Source: an uncultured Pseudomonadota bacterium | GTDB lineage: Bacteria; Myxococcota_A; UBA796; SXON01 | Assembly: GCA_903875225.1 (NCBI GenBank) | Contig: CAIQVJ010000027.1 | Location: forward strand, 62,001 to 126,000 | Direction of reading: 5' to 3' | DNA length: 64,000 bases | Shown here: positions 56,448-59,095 of the stretch, piece after piece | Numbering within the stretch: position 1 is the stretch's first letter | Layout of the letters: each line of letters opens with the position of its first letter | Translations under genes and position numbers: made by a program | The notes under the pieces: model-generated | What the model saw: only the letters and a program-made list of their open reading frames with translations | Databases searched by the model: none | What the model was told of the DNA's origin: nothing

Positions 56448-56524
56448 GACGATAGCCCGCCATCGGAGCAGACAACAGGACGATGGCCCCGCCTGGGCGG
56501 GGTCCAGCCCGGTTAGGCGCGATC

Positions 56525-57274
56525 ATGCGTCCCAAGCTCCTCGCGCTCCTGGCCCTGCTGCTGCTCCCCATCGCCGGAGCCCAGGCCGCCCGGAGCCACA
56601 GCCTGTACCAGTTCGCGTACCTGCCCGGCACGGATGTGTACCAGTGGGGCGCCATGGACGCGATCCCCCACCAGGTGACAGGCGCCCCGGCCGACGCGGA
56701 CTGGTCGCGGTGGTCCATGCTGCATGACCACGACGCATACCGCCTCTACGTGTACAGGAAGGGCTCCTCCTCGCTCTACCAGTTCGCCTTTGACGGACAG
56801 GCCTATGCGTGGGGCTACCACTCCATCCCGGAGATCACGATCGCAGGGCTCCCTGCGGATGCAGACACCTCCCACTTCGCGATGCTGTGGGACGGCGCCG
56901 ACTACCGTTTCTACGTGCGGCGCGCAGGGGTCTCCTCGTTGTACCAGGCAGCCTGGGTCGCCGGCACGGACCGCTACCAGTACGCCTACCACTCGATCGC
57001 CGAGATTCCCATCGCCGGGTTCCCGACCGACACCGACTGGTCAGGCTGGAGCATGCTGCATGACGGCACGAGCTATCGCCTGTACGCGATGCGGTCCGAC
57101 TCGCGGTTGGTGCTGTACCAGGGGGCGTTCGACGCGGGAAGCTCGCGCTACGTGTACGGTCACGACTCGATTCCGCGGCTGACGGTGGTCGGGACCCCGC
57201 AGGCGGCCTCCCACAAGGACTTCGCGATGTTGTTCGGGGAAGGGGTCTACAGGTTGTACCTGATGGGGAAGTGA
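56525..57274 (+). CDS. Secreted protein with four tandem ~57-residue repeats
   Basis: The 249-residue product has a signal peptide (LLALLALLLLPIAGAQA). Four repeats follow, each beginning near LYQ(F/A/G) and containing Y-H/D-SIP, a G-x-P turn and (S/A)ML..(D/G)..YR(L/F)Y. The regular spacing and aromatic positions suggest a small four-bladed propeller-like fold. No Cys is present. No known family was identified. Confidence 0.7.
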   Translation: MRPKLLALLALLLLPIAGAQAARSHSLYQFAYLPGTDVYQWGAMDAIPHQVTGAPADADWSRWSMLHDHDAYRLYVYRKGSSSLYQFAFDGQAYAWGYHSIPEITIAGLPADADTSHFAMLWDGADYRFYVRRAGVSSLYQAAWVAGTDRYQYAYHSIAEIPIAGFPTDTDWSGWSMLHDGTSYRLYAMRSDSRLVLYQGAFDAGSSRYVYGHDSIPRLTVVGTPQAASHKDFAMLFGEGVYRLYLMGK

Positions 57275-57382: not shown

Positions 57383-57700
57383 ATGCAGTTCGTGAGTCGT
57401 TCCGAGATCACAGTTCCACTCCCCGCCGCCGAGGCGCTGGAACGCGCATTCGTCGAGCGCGCACGCCTGGTCGACACCCACCCGGGGTTCCTGGGGCTGC
57501 AGTTGCTGCGGGACGTCCGGGAGAATGGCCGCTATGTGCTGCTCACGCAGTGGCGGAGTCGGGCCGACTTCACGGCCTACATGAAGAGCGGCGACCACGC
57601 GCGCGCCCACGATCGTCCTCATCCGGGCCTGGGCCCCGTCGGGGAGGGCGGCAAGCTCGAGCAGTTCCACGTCGTGGTCCAGACCCGTGAACCCGTTTAA
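57383..57700 (+). CDS. Antibiotic biosynthesis monooxygenase (ABM)-domain protein
   Basis: The 105-residue product matches the dimeric ferredoxin-like ABM fold, with HPGFLGLQLLRD and YVLLTQWRSRADFTAYM as typical segments. Relatives include HmoA-type heme-degrading and quinone monooxygenases. No heme-binding residue can be assigned, so the activity is open. The downstream gene starts inside it (14-bp overlap), linking it to the cobalamin-binding protein two genes later. Confidence 0.8.
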   Translation: MQFVSRSEITVPLPAAEALERAFVERARLVDTHPGFLGLQLLRDVRENGRYVLLTQWRSRADFTAYMKSGDHARAHDRPHPGLGPVGEGGKLEQFHVVVQTREPV

Positions 57701-58313
57701 CCCCGACGCCGGGAGCACCCCGGCCCCGGTGGACCCTGCCGACATCGCGCTGGTGGAGGACGCCGCGCGCGCGATGTGGCGTGCCGTCCCCTACTTCGCC
57801 TCGCGGTACGGGGAGCGCGGCCGGGCGTTCGGGCGCAGCGACGCGGGCTACCTCGTGACGCTCTCCGGGATGGACGAGGCGACCGCTCGCGCCCAGGTCG
57901 CCTGGCTGGCGGGTGTGCTCGCCCCCCGGGGCATGCCGAGCCTCCTGCTCGAGATCCAACTCGAGATCCTCGGGCGCATCGCGACCCGACGCGAGGCCCC
58001 AGGCGCGGGGCGCTTCCTCGGTCTCGCCGCAGAGCTGCGCGCGAAGCGGCTCGGTGCGCTCGACGCCCTGACGGCGCAGGCATGCGAGGATCGGTGCCGC
58101 CGGGCCGGGCCGGGCCAACGGCGCCGCGGCGCGGGGCTCCTGATTGCCGCGGCCGTCGCCGACCGGGCGACGGGGCTCGGCGACCACGACGAAGCGCTGG
58201 TGCGGTGGCTGGCAGAGGCGGAGCCCGGGGACTCCGCCTGGGCGACTGCATGCACGGAGGCTCGGGCGCTCGCGATCTCGCGCTGCCCGCGGCTCGGGGG
58301 GGTGGGCCGGTGA
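57687..58313 (+). CDS. Helical protein of unknown function
   Basis: The 208-residue product starts at GTG within the ABM gene. It is Ala/Arg/Leu-rich and helical, with an unusual Tyr-containing N-terminal region (FASRYGERGRAFGRSDAGYL). I recognise no family. Its stop overlaps the start of the cobalamin-binding gene by 4 bp (GTGA), so the two are probably made together. Confidence 0.6.
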   Translation: MNPFNPDAGSTPAPVDPADIALVEDAARAMWRAVPYFASRYGERGRAFGRSDAGYLVTLSGMDEATARAQVAWLAGVLAPRGMPSLLLEIQLEILGRIATRREAPGAGRFLGLAAELRAKRLGALDALTAQACEDRCRRAGPGQRRRGAGLLIAAAVADRATGLGDHDEALVRWLAEAEPGDSAWATACTEARALAISRCPRLGGVGR

Positions 58314-59095
58314 TCCGCTGGTGCAGCTACTGCCAGGCCTTCATGGGTGAGAAGCCGCCGTTCGACGAGCCGACGTTCACCCACACGATGTGCAGCCGGT
58401 GTGACCGCCGGCTCGAGCAGGGCGAGGCGCTGGACGCATCGACCGTGCCCCTTCGCGCGCTGATGAACCGTGTGCTCGCGAGCGCTCGCGCGGGCGACGA
58501 GACCGCCTGCGCCGACATCGTCGCCAGGGCACGGGAGCTGGGGCTCCGGCCGGACTCGGTGCTCGTCGGGTTGCTCCAGCCCGCGCTCTATCAGGCGGGA
58601 CTGGACTGGCAGGGCGGGCGGATGTCCGTCGCGGCGGAGCACCGCCTGACCAGCTGGTGCGAGCGGGCGTTCAACCTGCTGGTGACCGGATCCCACCCGA
58701 CTCCGCCGATCGACCTGCTCATCCTGCAGACCTCGGGAAACGAGCACACCGTGGGTCCGCGCTTTGCGGCAGCGTCGCTGGCATCGCAGGGGATCTCGGT
58801 GGAGGTCGTCGTACCCGCGCTCCCGCTCTCCGAGATCAAGGACCTCGTGAGGGAGCTTCGTCCTCGAGTCATCGGGTTTTCGTGCGCGCTGCCCGAGTCC
58901 GTGCGGGTAGCCACCGACCTCGTCGAGCAGCTGCGAGCCGAGCCCGACCCGGTGTTCCACTGTCGGTACCTGCTCTCCGGCTTTGCCTTCCGGATGCCCG
59001 GCGCGGACTGTGCGGCGATGGTCTCGCCGGGCATCGAGATCGCGCTCACGTTGGACCCGGGCATGTTCGCGAGACCGGACGCCTCCGCCGCCTGA
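58310..59095 (+). CDS. Cobalamin-binding protein with CarH-type W-x9-EH motif and N-terminal zinc ribbon
   Basis: The 261-residue product has three parts. Residues 1-35 form a zinc-ribbon-like element (C5-x2-C8, C28-x2-C31), of the kind seen in signalling proteins. Residues 45-125 form a helical cap with W100 followed by E110 and H111, the W-x9-EH signature of CarH/CarA/LitR B12 photoreceptors. Residues 130-255 form a B12-binding Rossmann domain with N144-E-H146-x2-G149, where the lower-ligand His is kept and the usual Asp is Asn. No MerR-type DNA-binding domain is present, so light- or B12-dependent signalling to a partner protein is an inference. It starts with GTG. Confidence 0.8.
   Translation: MIRWCSYCQAFMGEKPPFDEPTFTHTMCSRCDRRLEQGEALDASTVPLRALMNRVLASARAGDETACADIVARARELGLRPDSVLVGLLQPALYQAGLDWQGGRMSVAAEHRLTSWCERAFNLLVTGSHPTPPIDLLILQTSGNEHTVGPRFAAASLASQGISVEVVVPALPLSEIKDLVRELRPRVIGFSCALPESVRVATDLVEQLRAEPDPVFHCRYLLSGFAFRMPGADCAAMVSPGIEIALTLDPGMFARPDASAA

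Follow-up and report, generated by a model that had tools for sequence, protein, structure and literature searches.

Photocobilins bind both adenosylcobalamin (AdoCbl) and biliverdin, as described for SasPcob and AbDPcob (PDB 8J2W, 8J2X, and 8J2Y; PMC10979010; Zhang et al.). BBAG-2 globins likewise bind biliverdin and adjoin B12-binding proteins, and Rockwell et al. described BBAG globins of Myxococcales that neighbor B12-binding proteins in heme oxygenase-bearing genomes (PMC10151467). For light-responsive B12-binding domains (CBDs), a signature of four elements has been given (GxxW, EH, GxxH, and GxxxP), in the last of which the Gly makes no obvious contact with the cofactor and the Pro makes a hydrophobic one (PMC11796333). 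Here, we compare with these systems a locus in a 64,000-nucleotide stretch of DNA, hereafter called the window, in which three overlapping genes form an operon. An ABM-domain gene comes first, followed by a gene for a 208-amino-acid globin, and the last gene encodes a B12 protein with an N-terminal zinc ribbon, here called the ribbon-B12 protein (Table 1). We conclude that the three-gene system is real, conserved, and probably photosensory.

Table 1. Features of the three-gene operon (positions in the window)
Feature	Position	Strand	Evidence
ABM-domain gene, 105 aa, MhuD/IsdG type, candidate heme-degrading (bilin-producing) enzyme	57383..57700	+	PF03992, E=4.9e-17; best PDB matches MhuD, E about 1e-13
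Overlap of ABM and globin genes, 14 nt	57687..57700	+	Coordinates
Globin gene, 208 aa, photoglobin/BBAG-2 (phycobiliprotein-like) class	57687..58313	+	Heme oxygenase-globin fusions; hhalign; AF2 pLDDT 89.8
Globin Asp52, invariant, aligned to the Asp of the phycobiliprotein CxRD motif	57840..57842	+	Family alignment and hhalign/profile chain
Overlap of globin and B12 genes, 4 nt	58310..58313	+	Coordinates
Ribbon-B12 protein gene, 261 aa	58310..59095	+	Domain, CarH-model, PDB, and homologue-alignment evidence; AF2 fold
Zinc ribbon, C5-x2-C8 ... H25 ... C28-x2-C31	58322..58402	+	All four Cys identical across the 16 homologues
Helical B12 cap domain bearing W100 and E110-H111	58466..58681	+	PF02607, E=4.3e-12; AF2 helices 46-124
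Rossmann B12-binding domain; codon of lower-ligand His146 at 58745-58747	58718..58942	+	PF02310, E=2.9e-7; photocobilin/CarH fold match, E=2e-11

The ribbon-B12 protein and its family

An earlier note on this DNA, made from the letters alone, had read the last gene as a CarH-like cobalamin light sensor with a zinc ribbon in place of its DNA-binding domain. All the residues that it named (W100, E110, H111, N144-E145-H146-x2-G149, and C5/C8/C28/C31) were present in the open frame. The core is not a chance resemblance because the matches to B12-binding domains were significant, both for Pfam B12-binding_2 (residues 53 to 124) and for PF02310 (residues 137 to 211), the latter at 30.8 bits and slightly under the cut-off of 32.1. 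Moreover, homologues begin with M[IL]xWCxYC, in support of the GTG start at 58310. Domain-model searches found neither an HTH nor any other N-terminal domain in the protein, and replacement of the DNA-binding domain by the ribbon was thus borne out. The best relatives by sequence in the PDB were photocobilins 8j2x and 8j2w (E about 1.5e-12), followed by CarH (E about 1e-10), and the AF2 model (pLDDT 86.3) gave photocobilin 8j2w as its first structural match, again ahead of CarH. The nearest solved relatives are the Saccharothrix photocobilins. The claim of a CarH-type core that carries a ribbon and no DNA-binding domain therefore stands, but in both sequence and fold the core is closest to photocobilins and not to CarH. 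Membership in the CarH equivalog family (NF052513) was ruled out by a score of 50.9 bits against a cut-off of 400 and by the lack of a MerR domain.

Homologues with the same ribbon, for which the note had suggested a search, do exist: genome scans yielded 16 intact proteins with ribbon and core from several phyla. In all, 17 loci were identified when genomes from 84,980 species were scanned; they came from Myxococcales, Elusimicrobia, Acidobacteria, Spirochaetia, Leptospiraceae, Oligoflexales, and Bacteriovoracales, and three full-length ribbon-bearing relatives were present among 379 genomes of the same phylum. The closest ribbon-B12 gene, at locus L038, matched at 51%. A search of a plasmid collection returned distant B12 domains only.

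The globin partner

The 4-nucleotide overlap between the globin and ribbon-B12 genes likely gives translational coupling. A search for sigma-70 promoters found none. Directly upstream of the operon, positions 56483-57274 encode a 263-amino-acid protein with repeated SLYQFAY/YHSIPEI-type units and a likely signal peptide, for which a Pfam search gave no family over the cut-off.

The 208-amino-acid protein had no Pfam match, a direct sequence search of the PDB returned nothing at E<=10, and a Foldseek search with the globin model alone was not significant (8j2x; probability 0.60, E=3.6). Its class was determined from profiles. A profile called A6 was built exclusively from photoglobins at other B12 loci in the phylum, with no member of the partner family among them. 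By sequence, it matched allophycocyanin (E=2e-8) as well as photocobilin 8j2x (E=1e-6), and hhalign of the 208-amino-acid globin family against A6 gave 94.5% (E=7.9e-8). From these results, we conclude that the partner is a photoglobin of the BBAG-2 type. Consistent with this assignment, an HMM of CBD-fused photoglobins found the window globin at E=3e-4. The chromophore Cys of the CxRD motif is absent, its place being taken by Gly49. Several photoglobins that are linked to ABM genes (L072, L073, L081, and L130) differ from published photocobilins in having C-x-x-D at the position of the phycobiliprotein chromophore Cys, and covalent attachment of a bilin is possible in these. The window globin itself is, on the evidence of its class, likely to bind a bilin.

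At L044 (the contig of L018) and L050, the gene directly before the ribbon-B12 gene encodes a heme oxygenase fusion whose C-terminal half is a homologue of the window globin. The same layout occurs at L043 (the contig of L017) with a broken heme oxygenase frame, and at L066:1-3158 the heme oxygenase-globin fusion is followed by a PAS-PAS-ribbon-B12 protein. In these four fusions, the globin family shows the association with B12 and bilin-biosynthesis genes that characterizes BBAG-2 globins. At L043:6592-8007, a single stop interrupts the heme oxygenase part, indicating either a pseudogene or an assembly error, and L050 comes from a genome labelled as a Klebsiella pneumoniae MAG, a label that is probably a binning error. 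The globin domain was found in 11 of the 379 genomes of the phylum sample. Four large-genome relatives of one genus (L067-L070) have the globin and no recognisable B12 gene next to it, and L075:3867-6213 presents another split layout, in which successive genes encode a B12 protein, a histidine-kinase-like protein, and a photoglobin-like protein.

One alternative is that the ribbon-B12 protein is self-sufficient as an AdoCbl sensor of green light and acts on two-component partners; the globin would then be a bilin protein in its own right and the ABM protein an unrelated monooxygenase. Consistent with self-sufficiency, 12 of the 16 intact ribbon-B12 members, the closest one (L038) among them, have no adjacent globin, and response-regulator or kinase genes adjoin the ribbon-B12 genes of L039, L046, L051, and L053. 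Self-sufficiency is at odds, however, with the overlap of the genes in the window, with the heme oxygenase-globin fusions beside the ribbon-B12 gene in three relatives, and with the photocobilin precedents, in which both domains are fused (PMC10979010). We consider this alternative unlikely and think it moderately probable that the globin and the ribbon-B12 protein are functionally paired.

The ABM gene

Relative to the IsdG family, the ABM protein has lost two of three catalytic positions (N7 to S and W66 to Y) and has kept H75. Alanine changes at the Asn and Trp positions of that family reduced LFO1 activity (PMC5557675). The Ser replacement is common to the ABM proteins of six other B12 loci of the phylum, which come from three families and each of which has a photoglobin. 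Of 11 globin-bearing B12 loci, 6 had an adjacent ABM gene, as did none of the 50 others (Fisher p=8e-6, uncorrected for relatedness, and p=5e-5 without L072, which was a search query). At two loci (L130:4020-5406 and L133:3196-4534), B12, ABM, and photoglobin proteins are encoded by three separate adjacent genes and there is no ribbon, a split arrangement that is independent of the window operon.

Searches of the host genome found neither a PF01126 heme oxygenase nor a PF05996 bilin reductase. Heme oxygenase was present elsewhere in three of seven ABM-linked genomes and absent from the other four, and it was also absent from four of five photoglobin genomes that lack the ABM gene. Because ABM-linked and other photoglobin loci are not told apart by whether the genome has a heme oxygenase, the survey did not discriminate whether ABM replaces heme oxygenase. 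Among the bilin-reductase loci of the phylum, a search found neither a globin of the 208-amino-acid type nor a ribbon-B12 gene, and none of these loci represented the published pre-2 cluster of three genes. The ABM protein may make a bilin, which we regard as possible rather than probable, and its role is the weakest link of the scheme because catalytic residues are lost.

Light, B12 status, and output

Among the 16 aligned homologues, C5, C8, C28, C31, E110, N144, and H146 are invariant, and H111 (15/16), W100 (14/16), and H25 are nearly so. The His of N-E-H-x2-G, which the earlier note had taken as a hallmark of photoreceptors such as CarH, is thus confirmed as H146, but its surroundings are not those of the hallmark, as CarH and photocobilins have E/D-x-H and the ribbon-B12 homologues have N-x-H without exception. 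Three of the four signature elements were found (G97-x2-W100, E110-H111, and G143-x2-H146), and GxxxP is absent, with VPALP at that place. The host genome has one ribbon-B12 gene, as well as a MerR-B12 (CarH-type) protein, a corrinoid-protein-like gene, and a 1358-amino-acid frame with a strong B12-cap match, which is probably, from its length, methionine synthase. A PduO-type adenosyltransferase is also encoded there (E=3e-57), so the host can make AdoCbl. We conclude that the predicted AdoCbl core of the ribbon-B12 protein is very likely genuine and that a response of the protein to light is fairly likely.

The protein might instead sense B12 status or redox, either as an AerR-type antirepressor or as a corrinoid methyl carrier. 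AerR is a B12-binding regulator that acts without a DNA-binding domain, and its structure (7te2) was a weak PDB match (E=0.026); absence of GxxxP is also consistent with such a role. The photosensor residues argue otherwise, however, being retained in 14 (W100), 15 (H111), or all 16 (E110 and H146) of the homologues, as does the finding that no sequence or fold came closer than those of photocobilin and CarH. We know of no AerR-type antirepressor with a ribbon. Identity as a corrinoid methyl carrier was rejected, as no carrier model matched the protein and the photosensor residues are conserved. Overall, sensing of B12 status or redox is improbable.

The ribbon was found in other signalling contexts. 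The same type occurs on a weakly PAS-like protein at L012, a longer form lies within the PAS-PAS-ribbon-B12 protein of L066 (PAS assigned by eye), and a related C-x2-C...HGxC-x2-C ribbon ends an ABM protein just before a photoglobin-B12 gene at L081 and L084. In the latter two, a single protein (L081:2174-3511 and L084:2742-3707) joins ABM, a middle region, and the ribbon (ICLRCHKVKD...SHGYCEPC), and the gene for the photoglobin-B12 protein follows immediately, such that the modules of the operon appear recombined in another order. A ribbon profile search found no second copy in the host's own genome. Taking the PAS-type and ABM contexts together with the two-component neighbours described above, we infer that the ribbon may be a protein-docking element of signalling proteins. 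The proposal of the earlier note that the protein controls a partner and not DNA gains indirect support from these contexts, but the note missed the immediate genetic partner, the phycobiliprotein-like globin. Zinc ribbons often bind nucleic acid, and the protein could on that general ground be a direct light-dependent transcription regulator, but we consider this highly improbable, as PAS modules and ABM proteins carry a ribbon of this or a related type.

A proposed light-sensing system spread over separate proteins

On balance, we favor the reading that the genes at 57383-59095 specify a photocobilin-like system for light sensing whose parts are separate proteins. This reading builds on the observed domains, motifs, family, operon, fusions, and gene association, and it would extend them to AdoCbl and bilin binding, a light response, complex formation, ABM activity, and output. 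The ribbon-B12 protein would bind AdoCbl as CarH and photocobilins do, with His146 as the lower ligand and with the adenosyl group surrounded by W100 and E110-H111. Light would cleave the Co-C bond and change the assembly state of the protein. The globin, with Asp52 and no Cys, would bind a linear tetrapyrrole non-covalently and, like the globin domain that photocobilins carry in fused form, would dock on the B12 protein, here in trans, such that the action spectrum would widen to the red. The bilin would come from the ABM protein of the operon, which would stand in for the globin-fused heme oxygenase of relatives. Finally, the zinc ribbon, in place of a DNA-binding domain, would serve to dock the sensor on a partner in signalling, which would probably be a PAS/histidine-kinase or a receiver protein. 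The most specific version, a two-chromophore photoreceptor assembled in trans from the AdoCbl protein and the bilin globin, with the divergent ABM (Asn to Ser) making a bilin that is maybe not biliverdin IXalpha and with output via the ribbon shared with PAS proteins, is doubtful as a whole.

Fused B12/bilin photoreceptors are known, and a natural split, if true, would show how two pigments came together and would offer ready-made two-part light switches. If the proposed ABM role is true, a class mostly annotated as antibiotic monooxygenases would be tied to the supply of a photoreceptor chromophore. The zinc ribbon, in turn, offers a testable output route for B12 photoreceptors without DNA-binding or enzyme domains.

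Comparison with known systems

AerR-type antirepressors are B12-binding regulators that, like the window protein, have no DNA-binding domain, but the sequence match is weak (E=0.026). The operon ABM is closest to MhuD among the MhuD/IsdG-family heme oxygenases and keeps the axial His but differs from them in its catalytic triad (Asn to Ser and Trp to Tyr). With CarH/LitR, the window protein shares the cap and Rossmann B12 domains, W-x9-EH, and the lower His, but it has no MerR domain and scores below the family cut-off. Like the BBAG-2 clusters of Myxococcales, the operon has a globin gene beside a B12-binding-protein gene and a link to bilin biosynthesis, but its genome has no bilin reductase or heme oxygenase and the operon has an MhuD-like ABM gene instead; the main text of PMC10151467 makes no mention of a zinc ribbon. 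Photocobilins, which respond to both green and red light, are the closest relatives, sharing the CarH-type AdoCbl core and a phycobiliprotein-like globin partner. Whereas they combine CBD and globin in one polypeptide, the window globin is a separate overlapping gene, and the B12 protein further differs in its N-terminal zinc ribbon, in having N-x-H and not E/D-x-H, and in the missing GxxxP. Globin-B12 pairs and fused photocobilins are already known (PMC10151467 and PMC10979010), and priority for the ABM link is uncertain. As far as we found, what is new relative to the published photocobilin and BBAG accounts is the presence and spread of a ribbon on the B12 protein, the adjacent heme oxygenase-globin fusion, the ABM association, and the split.
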